A DNA stretch of 51,749 nucleotides, taken from the NCBI GenBank assembly GCA_017460515.1, contig JAFUAY010000016.1:1-51749 (forward strand), written 5' to 3'. The DNA comes from Prevotella sp. (GTDB lineage: Bacteria > Bacteroidota > Bacteroidia > Bacteroidales > Bacteroidaceae). The notes beneath the pieces were generated by a model, which saw only the letters and a list, made by a program, of their open reading frames with translations, ran no database searches and was not told the origin of the DNA. Below are positions 19,940 through 26,040 of the stretch, one piece after another (position 1 is the stretch's first letter; every line of letters starts with the position of its first letter). Made by a program: the position numbers and the translations under genes.

Positions 19940-20860
19940 TTATAATTCTTCAATATTGATGCCTGTTGCCTTGATAATATCAGCAGCTGACATGCCCATT
20001 TGCTTCAAATTGCGAGCAATAGCAAGACTCTTCTCATGTTCGCCTTCTGCACGACCTTCTGCACGTCCTTCTGCACGACCTTCTGCACGTCCTTCCGCAC
20101 GACCTTCTTCACGACCTTCAAGACGTGCTTCCCCGCGGGCAGTGATAATCTGGTCGGCAAGTATTACACGGTTATCTATGTAACGGCGGTATTCTGCTTG
20201 CTCCTCACGGCTCATCTTCGTGAACTGCAATTTTTCGCGTGCCTCCTTCAGACCTGGGGCATCGGCATCGTCGGGTATCTCACTTGTTGAAAGGAAATAG
20301 GCCCACTGTTCCAAAGGCACCTTCGACCAGCGATTGAAGTCATTGACCTTCAAGATGAAATATTCCGGGTATAGCTTATAGACCTCTGAGACGCCAAACT
20401 TCTGCTGCTGGAATGTTGATAACTGTAGAACATCGTTATGATGAAGTCCGCGAAACTCCGTCTTTCCGTGATACACGAAGTCCTTGCCCTGCCCAAGGTC
20501 GAAATACACAATATTGATGGAATATACCTTCTTGACGTTGTCATAGTTCTTGCCACTGTCGATATACTCCGTTACGAGTTTTGATGCACCAAACAGAATG
20601 CGCTGGAAATATGCATACTCAGACTCCCCCTGCACCTCGATAAGCAACAGTTCGCCATTATTGTCTTCGGCCAGGATGTCCACACGGTTCATCTTGGAAT
20701 CGTCACGATCCTTGTTGCCTTCACTCTCCAGCAAACGACGTATTTTGATGCTTCGGCCAAGCATCGTCGAAACAAAGCCTTCAAGTACGCCGAAGTTTGC
20801 CTTGTCGCGTAGTAAGCGCTTCAGTGCCCAGTCAAAACTGATATATGTCTTGTCTCTCAT
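19940..20860 (-). CDS. Rpn/PD-(D/E)XK nuclease-family protein
   Basis: The start at 20860 (MRDKTYISFDWALKRLLRDK) follows a near-perfect promoter, which excludes the longer frame to 21016. The 306-residue product belongs to the transposase-like Rpn family: the nuclease core is RVDILAEDNNGELLLIEVQ with Asp and the E-x-Q motif, then QRILFGASKLVTEY and VYSINIVYFDL. The C-terminus holds four to five tandem RAEG repeats (20044-20115) before MGMSAADIIKATGI, typical for this family. It probably makes DNA breaks that promote recombination. It converges with the helicase gene, ending 1 nt away. Confidence 0.9.
   Translation of the reverse strand: MRDKTYISFDWALKRLLRDKANFGVLEGFVSTMLGRSIKIRRLLESEGNKDRDDSKMNRVDILAEDNNGELLLIEVQGESEYAYFQRILFGASKLVTEYIDSGKNYDNVKKVYSINIVYFDLGQGKDFVYHGKTEFRGLHHNDVLQLSTFQQQKFGVSEVYKLYPEYFILKVNDFNRWSKVPLEQWAYFLSTSEIPDDADAPGLKEAREKLQFTKMSREEQAEYRRYIDNRVILADQIITARGEARLEGREEGRAEGRAEGRAEGRAEGRAEGEHEKSLAIARNLKQMGMSAADIIKATGINIEEL
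20044..20115. repeat. 12-bp tandem repeat coding for RAEG
   Basis: About six copies of the 12-mer CCTTCTGCACGA with small changes, in frame inside the Rpn gene. Copy number can change without frame loss. Confidence 0.85.
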
Positions 20861-20888
20861 CTTACTGTCTGTTTTATCCTTACGACTG

Positions 20889-20920
20889 CAAAGATAAGGA
20901 TTCTTTTTGAACCAACCAAA
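20889..20920 (-). promoter_or_regulatory. promoter of the Rpn gene
   Basis: Minus-strand TTTGG (20916-20920), 19 nt, TATCTTTG (20889-20896). It decides the start at 20860. Confidence 0.8.
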
Positions 20921-20974
20921 TAATCTGATGAAAAACATAACAAACAGCTCCATCATAAGAAAAGCTGGTTTTTC

Positions 20975-21006
20975 TTTTGCCTTTTGCTTGCTTATTCGTA
21001 CCTTTG
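20975..21006 (+). promoter_or_regulatory. promoter of rmuC
   Basis: TTTTG (20975-20979), 19 nt, TACCTTTG (20999-21006). It decides the start at 21031. Confidence 0.78.
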
Positions 21007-21030
21007 TCCCTGACAAAACGAATTGACAGC

Positions 21031-22398: not shown

Positions 22399-22441
22399 AG
22401 CCTAAGCTTTGCTATTTGCAAACACCATGTTTAGCCTTCGT

Positions 22442-22563
22442 AATCAATAGGATTACGAGTGCTAACTCTATTGATTACGAGTCACAATCAATAGGATTAC
22501 GAGTGCTAACTCTATGGATTTGCATGGTGGAGTGGTCACGGTCACAGCTGTGACCATGTGACC
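22442..22563. repeat. 44-bp tandem repeat followed by nested palindromes
   Basis: A 44-nt unit beginning AATCAATAGGATTACGAG occurs at 22442-22485 and again, in part, from 22486. The unit itself has inverted arms AATCAATAG and CTATTGATT. Next comes GGTCACAGCTGTGACC, a perfect 16-bp palindrome at 22540-22555, inside outer arms GGTCAC (22534-22539) and GTGACC (22558-22563). It is non-coding and just after rmuC; the palindrome may also end that transcript. Confidence 0.8.
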
Positions 22564-22625
22564 GAGTGACTGCGAGGATTGAAAAAATTCTCGCCTGATT
22601 TCTTGTCTGTTTCCAAATAATTGTC

Positions 22626-22633
22626 TAAATTTG
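22626..22633 (+). promoter_or_regulatory. -7 element before the structured RNA
   Basis: TAAATTTG matches TAnnTTTG. The upstream box is weak (TTG at 22603-22605). Transcription would start near 22640 and enter the structured region. Confidence 0.5.
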
Positions 22634-22639
22634 CACCTA

Positions 22640-22865
22640 ATCACTGGCAAATGACCTCAGCGGAGGCCGCCAGCGAGACTTTTGTGGAAATATAACAAGC
22701 GTTTGCTGTTATTCGGATTGTCCTAAGAATCTCGCAAATTCAATTAGCAAAACCGAAGAATAAGTCGCAAGCGCTCATGTGTTAAGCATGGGCGTGACTT
22801 ATCTGGTTTTGCAGGCATGCGAGAGCCTTTAGGACATAGATGGGAATACCGTCCATGTCTTTTTG
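22640..22865 (+). ncRNA. multi-hairpin structured RNA upstream of the RM-like pair
   Basis: Helices read directly: CTGGC/GCCAG with an inner CCTC/GGAG (about 22644-22673); P1 GTCCTAA (22720-22726) with TTAGGAC (22829-22835) and TCTCGCA (22730-22736) with TGCGAGA (22818-22824); P2 GCAAAACC (22747-22754) with GGTTTTGC (22805-22812); P3 ATAAGTC (22760-22766) with GACTTAT (22796-22802); P4 CGCTCATG (22772-22779) with CATGGGCG (22787-22794). A terminator-like hairpin ends at 22859 and is followed by TTTTTG. GCAGGCAT (22811-22818) can pair instead with ATGCCTGC (22873-22880). The methyltransferase starts at 22917. It may be a free RNA or a switchable leader; no known class is recognised. Confidence 0.65.
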
Positions 22866-22916
22866 TTCTCTAATGCCTGCTTCCGAAGATAAGCAATACG
22901 TACTAATGCATAGCGT

Positions 22917-24029
22917 ATGGCACAGAAAAATCTAAGCGCTGCAAAGACAGCTAAGAAGGATGAGTTTTATACTCAACTAACTGACATTGAAAGGGAATTG
23001 CAACACTACTGGCCTCATTTTCGTGATAAAGTGGTGCTGTGCAATTGTGATGACCCTTACGAAAGTAATTTCTTCAAGTATTTTGCCCTTCGTTTCAACC
23101 AATTAGGCATGAAGAAACTAATCTGCACCTGTTATAACGGTTCCCCAGTACAGGGCAATGAACTGATGATTGACTTTGGTGACTTTTCAAACGAGCCCAA
23201 GAAGATTGCCTACAAGGTGGAAATTACAGAAGTGAAAGACCTGAATGGTGATGGTGCTGTTGACCTTTCGGATGTTCAATACCTACTTCAGAACGATAAG
23301 AACGTTTGTTCTATTTTGAAGACTGGCGACTTCCGTGATCCTGAATGTATCGAACTGCTAAAACAAGCAGACATTGTTGTCACCAATCCACCATTCTCAT
23401 TATTTAGAGAGTATATCGGACAACTTATGAAGTATGAAAAGAAGTTCTTGATAGTAGGGCATCAAAATTCGATTACCTACAGAGAAGTCTTTCCATTGAT
23501 TAAACAAAACAAGGTGTGGCTTGGATATGGATTTAAAGGTGGTGCCGCACATTTCTACTCTCCGTATGAAGATACAGCGACAGCAGGTGACCACAAAAAA
23601 GACATGATTCGAGTATCAGGTGTGAATTGGTTTACTAACCTTGAAATACCCAAGCGTAATGAAGATTTAGATTTAGTCTGTCAATATTCTCAAGAGGAAT
23701 ATCCTACCTATCATAATTATGATGCAATTAATGTGAATAAAACGTCAGATATACCATGCAATTATAAAGGTATTATAGGAGTTCCTATTACATTCTTAGA
23801 GAAATACAATCCTGAACAATTTGAAATAATCTGGCGTGGTGGAGATATTGAATGGGCAGAGAATGAATGCCCTTTCTATACTCCGCCTTCAAATGAGGAA
23901 GCTGAAAAATTCAAGAAACAAGACAAAACATGGAGGATACAGAATCCATATCTAATAGATAAGTTAGGTAATGCAAAAGTTGTATACCAAAGAATATTTA
24001 TCCGTAACAAACATCCTCAAAAGCTATGA
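22917..24029 (+). CDS. EcoRI-family adenine-specific DNA methyltransferase
   Basis: The 370-residue protein has the layout of the EcoRI-type adenine methyltransferase family: AKKDEFYTQLTDIE near 12-25, DDPYESNFFKYF near 45-56, and the catalytic NPPF at 157-160 in ADIVVTNPPFSLF. It should transfer a methyl group from S-adenosylmethionine to an adenine N6. A DLNGDGAVDLSD stretch at 108-119 looks like an EF-hand or dockerin calcium loop, unusual for such an enzyme. The gene is clearly AT-rich. Its stop overlaps the start of the next gene (ATGATGA), so the two proteins are translationally coupled. Confidence 0.9.
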   Translation: MAQKNLSAAKTAKKDEFYTQLTDIERELQHYWPHFRDKVVLCNCDDPYESNFFKYFALRFNQLGMKKLICTCYNGSPVQGNELMIDFGDFSNEPKKIAYKVEITEVKDLNGDGAVDLSDVQYLLQNDKNVCSILKTGDFRDPECIELLKQADIVVTNPPFSLFREYIGQLMKYEKKFLIVGHQNSITYREVFPLIKQNKVWLGYGFKGGAAHFYSPYEDTATAGDHKKDMIRVSGVNWFTNLEIPKRNEDLDLVCQYSQEEYPTYHNYDAINVNKTSDIPCNYKGIIGVPITFLEKYNPEQFEIIWRGGDIEWAENECPFYTPPSNEEAEKFKKQDKTWRIQNPYLIDKLGNAKVVYQRIFIRNKHPQKL

Positions 24030-25150
24030 TGACAATAAGACAAATCAAAGTAACCGTTGGCGATATCACCAAAGGTTATGTAAATAACGACGAACAAGGA
24101 GTTCGCGGTTATGATGGTCAGCTGGACATTCGCCCACCTTATCAGCGTGAGTTTATCTATAATGAGAAGGAACAGCAGGCCGTAATACATACCGTATTGC
24201 AAGGCTATCCACTGAACGTGATGTATTGGGTAAAACGCTCAGAGGATGCTGATTGTCCTTATGAGGTTATGGACGGACAGCAGCGAACACTTTCGCTCTG
24301 TGAATATGTGGATGGCAAGTTCTCGTATGAGTTTAAGAACTTTTTCAATCAGCCTGAGGATATTCAGAAGCGCATCCTCAACTATCCGCTGACTATCTAT
24401 GTCTGTGAGGGTGAGGCATCGGAGAAGCTGGAGTGGTTCAAGACCATCAACATAGCAGGTAAGCCGCTAAACGAACAGGAAATCAATAATGCAATCTATG
24501 CAGGTCCTTTTGTCTCAGATGCCAAGCGTCATTTCTCGAAGTCGAATAGTGGCGCGGCTCGTTTGGGTAAAGACCTCGTAAATGGTACGCCCATCCGTCA
24601 GGACTTTTTGAAAGTAGCTTTGGAATGGATAGCTGACCATGAAACTCGTGGCGGTCATCGACAGACGGTAGTAGGCTATATGGCTGCCCATCAGCATGAC
24701 CCCAACGCCAATAACCTATGGTCTTATTTCCAGACAGTGCTGAACTGGGCTATCACCAACTTCGACATGAAGAAGTTTAAGAAGATAATGAAGGGATTGG
24801 ATTGGGCTTGGCTCTACGACAAGTATGGCTCAGAGACGCTCGATACTGCCGCTCTTGGCAAACGAATCTCTGAATTGATGCGCGATAGCGAGATTCAGAA
24901 ACAGTCGGGCATTATTCCGTTTGTGCTGACTGGCGATGAACACTATCTGGACCTTCGTGCCTTCCCTGAAGATATCAAACTTGCCGTTTGGGAAAAGCAG
25001 AACCACATCTGTCCCATCTGCGGCAAGGAGTTCGACTACGAATTCATGGAGGGCGACCACATCGCCCCTTGGCGCGAGGGCGGCCGAACCGTCATTGAGA
25101 ACTGCCAGATGCTGTGCAGGGAGTGTAATAGGAGAAAGGGAGCGAAATAA
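24026..25150 (+). CDS. DUF262-HNH nuclease (GmrSD-like)
   Basis: The 374-residue protein begins with a ParB-like DUF262 domain: RPPYQREF (36-43) and the nucleotide-binding DGQQRTLSL (83-91). The C-terminus is an HNH nuclease with zinc cysteines: CPIC (329-332), DHI (344-346), N359 and CREC (364-367). All key residues are present. Related proteins (GmrSD, BrxU) cut modified phage DNA using nucleotide hydrolysis. Here it is coupled to a methyltransferase, which suggests a restriction-type pair. It carries MMTIRQ as start; the second Met is equally possible. Confidence 0.9.
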   Translation: MMTIRQIKVTVGDITKGYVNNDEQGVRGYDGQLDIRPPYQREFIYNEKEQQAVIHTVLQGYPLNVMYWVKRSEDADCPYEVMDGQQRTLSLCEYVDGKFSYEFKNFFNQPEDIQKRILNYPLTIYVCEGEASEKLEWFKTINIAGKPLNEQEINNAIYAGPFVSDAKRHFSKSNSGAARLGKDLVNGTPIRQDFLKVALEWIADHETRGGHRQTVVGYMAAHQHDPNANNLWSYFQTVLNWAITNFDMKKFKKIMKGLDWAWLYDKYGSETLDTAALGKRISELMRDSEIQKQSGIIPFVLTGDEHYLDLRAFPEDIKLAVWEKQNHICPICGKEFDYEFMEGDHIAPWREGGRTVIENCQMLCRECNRRKGAK

Positions 25151-25165
25151 AAAACTTACCTTTAT

Positions 25166-25197
25166 TTTGGAATAATCTTAAATAATTTGTAGCTTTG
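25166..25197 (+). promoter_or_regulatory. promoter of the small membrane-protein pair
   Basis: TTTGG (25166-25170), 19 nt, TAGCTTTG (25190-25197). It begins just after the nuclease stop. Confidence 0.78.
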
Positions 25198-25217
25198 CAG
25201 AAAAATAGAAGATCCGA

Positions 25218-25403
25218 ATGATGCTGTTAGTAATATACTTGTTTGTGTCGTTGGCTTATGCATGCTTATCCGAGGAATTGAGACCGTCGACATTTATAGG
25301 ATGGGGACTGTATGCTTTCCTGACAGTGTGTTTCACGCCGATAGTTTCTATACCAATTACTACTGCAGCATGTTATTTTTTGGGGTCGATATACGGGGAG
25401 TAG
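25218..25403 (+). CDS. small membrane protein (61 aa)
   Basis: The product is almost entirely hydrophobic, with two likely membrane spans (about 2-18 and 28-56) separated by the polar EELRPSTF turn. It sits 20 nt behind a good promoter, which argues that it is real despite its size. A second tiny frame follows after 14 nt. No family is recognised. Being next to an RM-like pair, it might be part of the same defence island, but that is inference. Confidence 0.6.
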   Translation: MMLLVIYLFVSLAYACLSEELRPSTFIGWGLYAFLTVCFTPIVSIPITTAACYFLGSIYGE

Positions 25404-25417
25404 AAAACATTCTTTAA

Positions 25418-25549
25418 ATGGATACCATCGTCTATATCATAGGAGTCGTCTGTACTTGTTTGGTAAGCATTGCCGCGTTGATTTGTCCGTTTTGGATAAT
25501 ATGGGCAATTTACAAGATGAGCAAGGAATGGTGGTATTATAATCACTAA
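25418..25549 (+). CDS. very small membrane protein (43 aa)
   Basis: A complete frame of 43 codons starts MDTIVYIIGVVCTCLV and ends KEWWYYNH. It has one long hydrophobic span (about 4-31) and a basic, aromatic tail, a layout seen in small toxins and in inner-membrane regulators. It shares the promoter with the 61-aa gene. The evidence is only composition and position. Confidence 0.45.
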   Translation: MDTIVYIIGVVCTCLVSIAALICPFWIIWAIYKMSKEWWYYNH

Positions 25550-25850: not shown

Positions 25851-25988
25851 CGTAAGCGTATCCGCTGTGACGTCTTGCGGGCTATGAGTGAAACGTAGTT
25901 TCGCCAAGGGCAAAGCCTAGTTTCTCAACGAGTAAAACGTAGTTTCGCTATGAGTAAAACGTAGTTTCGCTATGAGCGTTCCTTGGCG
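25851..25988. repeat. dispersed hairpin plus 22-bp tandem repeat
   Basis: The first 22 nt (25851-25872) are identical to 1231-1252. Then a 22-bp unit GAGTAAAACGTAGTTTCGCT is repeated: exact copies at 25929-25950 and 25951-25972 and a weaker one near 25886-25905, each with a GAAAC-GTA-GTTTC type palindrome. CGCCAAGG (25902-25909) and CCTTGGCG (25981-25988) flank the array in inverted order. It is non-coding. Confidence 0.8.
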
Positions 25989-25990
25989 TT

Positions 25991-26040
25991 GTTATTCCGC
26001 AGTTACTTAGTTATTAGGACGTAATTACTTAGTAACTTTC
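25991..26040. repeat. short word repeat, family TTAGTAATT, locus 3
   Basis: TTACTTAGTTATTAG and TTACTTAGTAAC variants lie just upstream of the M6 protease promoter. Confidence 0.55.

Follow-up and report, generated by a model that had tools for sequence, protein, structure and literature searches.

The locus

The stretch of DNA analysed here (the window) covers positions 1–51,749, i.e. 51,749 nucleotides (nt), of contig JAFUAY010000016.1 from a Prevotella sp. genome (GenBank assembly GCA_017460515.1). Between positions 22,626 and 25,549 it contains a promoter box, a structured leader RNA, overlapping genes for an EcoRI-type adenine methylase and a DUF262-HNH nuclease, and two small open reading frames. 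The leader RNA rather than the protein pair is the main find: as far as Rfam 15 and the literature searched show, it apparently forms a family not described before, and it is built like a transcription switch.

The methylase gene (22917–24029, + strand) encodes 370 amino acids (aa) and carries the motif NPPF. The nuclease gene (24026–25150, + strand) encodes 374 aa, with DGQQR and HNH residues present in the sequence. The TGA stop codon of the former overlaps the ATG of the latter, the overlap being four bases. These features had been described in an earlier note on this DNA, and both sequence and Pfam confirm them. EcoRI_methylase (PF13651) spans methylase residues 5–365 (E = 3.7e-145), and the nuclease displays GmrSD_N (E = 1.4e-17) and HNH (E = 1.4e-15) domains, its C-terminus matching PF01844 (HNH) and PF14279 (HNH_5). 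DUF1524 is not among the Pfam families listed for the nuclease up to E = 0.1, and no helicase domain was found in the pair by the Pfam scan. There is no EcoRI-fold nuclease partner, as the earlier note had also said; the partner is the DUF262-HNH protein.

The PADLOC model MTase_II (PDLC03297) spans methylase residues 3–305 (E = 1.3e-110) and REase_II (PDLC03418) covers the whole nuclease (E = 1.7e-127). Since both proteins are already modelled there as Type II, the pair is not undescribed as such, and the proposal of an undescribed defence module falls in that form. It is a widespread pair of a known kind, filed in PADLOC as Type II, and a DNA methylase gene does lie adjacent to the nuclease gene. 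It is unusual in that a swappable module in the methylase is set against a uniform nuclease, as shown below.

Structure comparisons using Foldseek liken the DUF262 part of the nuclease to BrxU, SspE, ParB-type and sulfiredoxin folds, although none of the matches listed reaches E = 0.001. The resemblance makes a nucleoside triphosphate-dependent loading of the nuclease a fair guess, no more. The HNH part, at about residues 310–374 only, resembles IscB, Cas9 and TasH, with two NCBIfam matches far below their cut-offs. For the methylase, generic methylases and further Rossmann-like proteins make up most of the matches listed (best E = 3.1e-3).

Structure of the leader RNA

The promoter −7 box, TAAATTTG (22626–22633, + strand), fits the pattern TAnnTTTG, which we take to be the Bacteroidetes-type −7 consensus. 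Of 55 RNA homologues, 43 have such a box in the 100 nt before them; in two sets of control stretches it is present in 7 of 52 and in 2 of 54. The leader is of the form termed type A; it extends from about 22640, with a core at 22693–22919 (+ strand) that scores 230.6 bits with covariance model R1, a model built partly from the window sequence itself. The fold of 22640–22916 has a z-score of −5.6 and none of 200 shuffles was as good; together with covariation of the structure across loci, this bears out the structured RNA noted earlier upstream of the pair.

Helices were assigned on alignment A1, which comprises 31 of 34 type A leaders (L024, L032 and L033 were left out as divergent). Closing helix P1 has its 5′ strand at 22699–22710 (+ strand) and its partner at about 22890–22902; the corresponding A1 columns, 7–18 with 217–231, are 98.7%–99.2% paired and show no double-sided change. 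The putative antiterminator helix P2a has the 5′ strand UGUCCU at 22719–22724 (+ strand; columns 28–33 with 151–156), and here all six pairs change on both sides, with 97.3% of cells paired in the 31 sequences. A central hairpin, P3, is found at 22759–22804 (+ strand; columns 74–94 with 101–117, 98.6%–98.7% paired). It is followed by a terminator-like hairpin at 22831–22861 (+ strand), with arms at 22831–22841 and 22851–22861 and a U-run from 22860 (columns 151–161 with 171–181, 98.8% paired, double-sided changes in 5 of 11 pairs). Positions 22831–22836 are common to this hairpin and P2a. A further hairpin that includes the start codon (22897–22917, + strand; columns 227–231 with 249–253) is exclusive with P1; it is 91% paired, with double-sided change in one of five pairs.

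Rfam 15 gave no gathering match in the window; in eight loci it gave one tRNA and nothing else above threshold, and a permissive scan of 22610–22930 gave nothing. Three weak, unrelated matches below threshold (mir-1329, CsrC and MIR172) were taken as chance. No earlier description of the family was found in the literature searched, which did not cover a 2017 motif screen, so that a prior name is possible. The available portions of PMC12707154, PMC9723704 and PMC12121620 contain no earlier description of the leader, and the terms restriction, Bacteroid, Prevotella, DNA methyl and defense do not occur in PMC11109978 and PMC8632094.

Evidence for a probable transcription switch

In a model-free scan of all column pairs in the 31 type A leaders, the helix 28–33:151–156 ranked first, and second was the hairpin 151–161:171–181, which reuses columns 151–156. 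The antiterminator and terminator-like helices are thus mutually exclusive in type A, sharing these columns, and both covary. The covariation scores of the set of helices assigned to the ON fold and of the set assigned to the OFF fold each lie above all 500 shuffles and all slid controls. A run of at least four U follows the terminator-like hairpin in 24 of the 31 leaders, the window included. Over the helices, G-U cells outnumber A-C cells by 248 to 25, an excess which indicates that the RNA of the + strand is what folds and is selected. When the folds were forced with helices of our choice, OFF was better than ON in 30 of 31 leaders, by a mean of 9.9 kcal/mol (8.0 kcal/mol in the window).

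A second form of the leader, type B, was aligned separately (A2, 31 of 44 type B leaders). It displays a comparable arrangement, in which a helix at columns 155–164:238–247, with three double-changed pairs, excludes an apical hairpin at 146–150:156–160. An alignment-free antiterminator test was positive (p ≤ 0.05, 300 mononucleotide shuffles) in 20 of 36 loci.

The covariation points to an antiterminator/terminator switch. The locus would be a two-gene restriction-modification operon with a single promoter, in which the leader RNA attenuates transcription in cis. In the ON fold P1 and P2 would form, P2a capturing the strand needed for the terminator hairpin and P1 leaving the start codon free, and the operon would be read. 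In the OFF fold, the ground state according to the energy model, the terminator-like hairpin with its U-run and the start-codon hairpin would form and the operon would be shut; termination in the cell would presumably occur at this terminator-like hairpin. A role of the RNA in the expression of the pair, which the earlier note had suggested, is supported by its position, its promoter and the predicted switch architecture.

Occurrence at loci of the pair

Nuclease relatives were collected as the best 80 of at least 524, which are 70%–97% identical and labelled Bacteroidales or Bacteroidetes; many come from gut or rumen. The 80 fetched loci and four from the window's own genome (window included) make up a set of 84. 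A methylase is found by tblastn in the same locus as the nuclease in 78 of the 80 fetched loci and in all four own-genome loci. In L048 the methylase is detached, about 1 kilobase (kb) from the nuclease, and in L037 none was found. The nuclease was also matched on 190 plasmid records (43 at 80% cover or more) and, at this cover, in four phage records, two of which are one and the same phage. The overlapping pair is annotated on a Mammaliicoccus plasmid, on an Aeromonas plasmid and in a Flavobacterium phage. On a Chryseobacterium plasmid the nuclease alone is annotated, and tblastn shows that it is preceded by a methylase split into two pieces, which lie in different frames. The pair is therefore conserved beyond this genome, and the nuclease is not a chance neighbour of a methylase that regularly has an EcoRI-like partner; the grounds on which the earlier note would have given up the association do not apply.

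The leader is present by model at 79 of the 84 loci, 35 with type A and 44 with type B (counted at 52 bits or more), and its 3′ end lies at or near the start codon. Because models match their own building sequences by construction, it should be noted that 62 of the 79 leaders went into the models and 17 are independent finds. Inspection by pattern and eye shows a leader at 78 of the 79 loci that include the methylase start. The five loci without one are L007, L063 and L082, where the contig ends before the methylase start, and the two already mentioned, L037 and L048. A sample of 101 genomes from the window's family contains 34 full-length EcoRI-type methylase matches, and a leader of type A or B lies directly before 24 of them.

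Four distant copies of the pair, outside Bacteroidales, gave no good leader match (the sole two matches, at E = 0.6 and 0.76, were not accepted); a leader intrinsic to the pair in all lineages is thereby ruled out. One of the phages, Flavobacterium phage vB_FspS_laban6-1 (L261), has the overlapping EcoRI-type methylase and DUF262-HNH genes and no good RNA match.

The RNA type agrees with that of the nearest nuclease neighbour in 58 of 74 cases (37.2 by chance). Near-identical pairs can have type A at one locus and type B at the other (L015/L077 and L011/L014). No clear link was seen by eye between a variable stem of the RNA and the methylase module.

Occurrence before other genes

Across the same 101 genomes, R1 (type A) detects 38 places in 24 genomes and R2 (type B) 35 places in 25, with one place matched by both. 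Four type A leaders are matched weakly by R2, at a level that wrong-strand sequence also reaches, so that kinship of the two types rests on their shared architecture and is not proven. The 30 R1 loci comprise six before EcoRI-type methylases, 13 before other DNA methylases (Type I, Eco57I-like, D12 and N6_N4, the last being Type III-like; L109 is called so by likeness to L106), one before a Snf2/PLD protein, and 10 before other genes, including MBOAT, acyltransferases, a TPR protein and small proteins without a family. At 18 of the 30 R2 loci the following gene encodes an EcoRI-type methylase, at another a Type IIG enzyme and at yet another a Type III enzyme; the remaining 10 include stand-alone copies.

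A broader model, R3, was built from 40 R1 matches. It shows the RNA in 55 of the 101 family genomes at E = 0.001, in 82 of 295 genomes of the order at E = 1e-4, and in 11 of 198 in a phylum sample that includes the window's own genome; matches near these two limits are considered doubtful. In the order, the genes identified behind the RNA encode C5 methylases, MmeI-like and Type IIG enzymes, methylases of Types I and III, a helicase close to Type IV enzymes, a ZorA2 (E = 1e-163) and an HKD-Snf2 protein. Sixty matches were picked for their downstream genes, those too close to a contig end for such a gene to be seen being left aside. Of 87 order-level downstream proteins, 51 were scanned, chosen for a start codon close to the RNA; these include seven BspA-type leucine-rich-repeat proteins and other secreted proteins. 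The RNA is thus spread before many defence and surface genes, and the model searches rule out that it is private to the EcoRI-type pair. That the RNA travels with the pair, a point which the earlier note had wanted checked, holds for most Bacteroidetes loci; the RNA is not exclusive to the pair and gave no good match at the four distant copies.

In the window's own genome the RNA is present six times. Four copies are at EcoRI-type systems and one precedes a protein with a secretion-type N-terminus. At L196 (C47:85909–86144) it lies 59 nt before a gene for a DrmD-like helicase (PADLOC DrmD, E = 5.1e-123), which hints at a DISARM-like locus in this genome.

Several variants were seen in passing. 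The 3′ end of a type B-like subtype (L136, L138, L141, L150, L151 and L152) is formed by a hairpin with U, not directly joined by a start codon, and the subtype may represent a free-standing RNA. A fair number of order-level copies, e.g. L168 and L181, are no more than about 550 nt from a contig end, as is usual for repeats, and these environmental forms often precede secreted or lipoprotein-like genes. At L161 and L198 the RNA is immediately followed by the start of similar-looking proteins of no known kind, 171 and 174 aa long; the L161 protein has no PADLOC match.

An exchangeable methylase module and a uniform nuclease

A segment of the methylase gene at 23838–23969 (+ strand), or about residues 308–351, is hypervariable and is read as a target-recognition module. 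In 77 methylases, conservation by ten-residue blocks is 0.18–0.29 at residues 311–350, where both sequence and length vary, and 0.50–0.99 in the remaining blocks. The nuclease has no block below 0.69 in 82 sequences.

The modules form 31 classes among 75 loci, and 11 of these recur. For eight of the 11, both RNA types are seen; each of the other three has just two members. One module can be common to methylases that are just 39%–44% identical outside the C-terminal part (L003 with L022 and L027; L004 with L021 and L055). The four copies of the system in the window's genome have four different modules. In the UBA4332 metagenome assembly, two loci have nucleases one residue apart (99.7% identical) and modules that are 6% identical. 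Of 75 nucleases, 13 have a nearest neighbour whose methylase carries the same module, compared with a mean of 7.9 in shuffles, 100 of 2000 of which were as high.

This near-independence of nuclease sequence and module, although no measure of specificity, argues against recognition of the same site by each enzyme independently. If the module sets the target, the nuclease would have no private fixed site and must follow the methylase. In Type III restriction, Mod guides Res. A loosely similar arrangement is the likeliest reading of these comparisons, with the target defined by the swapped module and the nearly invariant nuclease following the methylase, from which it may take its target; this would explain how one nuclease serves many specificities. 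An attempt to place the segment on the methylase structure was given up, the model being too weak there and Foldseek giving mostly generic methylases.

Alternative explanations

Taken as a whole, an attenuator leader before the operon, with the methylase module setting the target for the nuclease, is probably the best explanation. Several results weigh against it. On the RNA side, the alignment-free antiterminator is significant in just 10 of 25 family-level loci; support for the switch outside EcoRI-type loci is partial; the further pair types of the ON structure are no more frequent than in shuffles (131 of 500 as high); covariation is slight in P1 and in the start-codon hairpin; the run of four U is missing from 7 of 31 type A leaders; and no ligand or factor for the leader is known. 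Ten of the 34 full-length EcoRI-type methylases in the family lack a leader at the thresholds used, and the RNA lies within about 1.3 kb upstream of just 10 of 141 N6_Mtase places. The models also give weak wrong-strand matches (E = 0.0006 to 0.05), which is why genome matches near E = 0.001 are doubtful. On the protein side, a sequence comparison of the methylase with solved structures gave no convincing match (best E = 0.35). The contact of the hypervariable segment with DNA is putative, and AlphaFold confidence is low there, the block means of the predicted local distance difference test score (pLDDT) being 50–62 over residues 311–360.

For the proteins, the chief competing account is an ordinary Type II system: the nuclease would recognise a fixed site of its own, and the hypervariable part of the methylase would serve another end, e.g. 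escape from phage inhibitors. PADLOC's filing agrees with this, as do the occurrence of the pair on plasmids and in a phage and the slight excess of shared modules between nuclease neighbours. Discrete modules with conserved flanks, common to methylases that differ widely elsewhere, look instead like target-recognition swaps, and four different modules in one genome also speak against an ordinary system, which we nevertheless regard as a real, if lesser, possibility.

For the RNA, a passive cassette of promoter and untranslated region, carried on mobile genes and not switching, could have a stable fold that merely protects the messenger. The moderate tie between RNA type and nuclease descent would suit such a cassette, as would the lack of a known signal, but it has no need of two exclusive helices that both covary, nor of an exclusive pairing that recurs in type B, and it is accordingly judged unlikely. 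Still less likely is an element that works as DNA, i.e. an attC-like folded site of recombination or insertion which exchanges cassettes behind a promoter and whose RNA fold is a by-product. RNA type, module and nuclease do recombine, as L015/L077 and L011/L014 show for RNA type, and the uncounted copies near contig ends look repeat-like. Against this stand the excess of G-U over A-C, which is specific to the + RNA strand, the upstream promoter box, the U after the hairpin and the inclusion of the start codon in the structure. The least likely account is a trans-acting RNA that binds the nuclease or the methylase and serves it as guide or cofactor. The leader is similar in size to known guide RNAs, one of its paired stems is variable, some type B-like copies that are not next to a start codon finish in a hairpin with U, and the HNH domain has been likened above to those of IscB, Cas9 and TasH. 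That likeness, however, is limited to a short C-terminal segment, the distant copies of the pair are without a good RNA match, the same RNA fronts unrelated enzymes, and the variable stem is self-paired and thus not a free guide.

Neighbouring sequences

Two small open reading frames follow the nuclease gene, at 25218–25403 and 25418–25549. They are present where the earlier note had placed them and may, as it held, encode hydrophobic proteins behind a promoter of their own, but tblastn finds them at none of the other 83 loci, and they were accordingly rejected as part of the module. The AT-rich base use remarked upon there applies to the methylase gene (G + C fraction 0.375) and the small reading frames (0.395, compared with 0.493 for the window) and hardly to the nuclease gene (0.476). 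The module idea of that note was partly right.

Short repeated or palindromic stretches, attaggattacgagtgctaactctat-like and ggtcacggtcacagctgtgaccatgtgacc, are present at 22440–22570, between an rmuC-like gene and the promoter. Beyond the locus, the stretch 25880–26040 contains a number of near-repeats, of gtaaaacgtagtttcgctatgag and of cttagttattag. A 358-aa open reading frame at 19940–21016 (− strand) has a run of GRAE repeats near its end.

Comparison with known systems and significance

The pair resembles Type II restriction-modification systems in its strong PADLOC matches, full length for the nuclease, and in the overlapping arrangement found on plasmids and in phage; it differs in that the nuclease is not an EcoRI nuclease and that its sequence barely tracks the variable module of the methylase. 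With GmrSD and Type IV enzymes it shares the DUF262 domain, and its nuclease may read a DNA modification, such as the mark of its methylase that the earlier note had proposed. Compared with the modification-dependent nucleases GmrSD, BrxU and SspE (chains of 557–771 aa), the window nuclease is shorter, has a Pfam HNH domain in place of DUF1524 and is paired with its own DNA methylase. Type III Mod/Res systems likewise have a variable recognition module in the methylase and a near-uniform nuclease partner, but here the nuclease is a DUF262-HNH protein and a helicase domain was not detected.

The RNA is like attenuating leaders and riboswitches in having a promoter, a structured leader, exclusive antiterminator and terminator-like helices and a gene at its 3′ end. 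It is unlike them in lacking an Rfam 15 match and in that its downstream genes share no obvious metabolite and include many defence and surface genes. A review (PMC12707154) describes control of restriction systems by C proteins, methylase repressors and antisense RNAs, with antisense RNAs controlling EcoRI and Eco29kI; in its main text, "leader RNA" and "attenuation" do not occur. In both cases an RNA tunes, or would tune, a restriction operon, but the EcoRI and Eco29kI RNAs are antisense and belong to one system each, whereas the present RNA is a sense leader common to many systems.

A wider proposal, which at present we hold to be doubtful, is that one RNA class is a Bacteroidota switch for phage-facing genes (restriction systems of almost all types, Zorya and DISARM-like genes and surface-modifying enzymes), with one cue, for instance growth state or an attack by phage, to which all copies respond, and that behind it in the window the methylase module alone sets the target, the ParB-like DUF262-HNH nuclease being loaded onto unmethylated sites by the methylase. 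A sense leader across unrelated systems would mean that a single RNA logic governs some surface genes and a share of the phage defence in Bacteroidota. Bacteroidota are a dominant gut phylum, and the leader would make it testable when and why their defences turn on.

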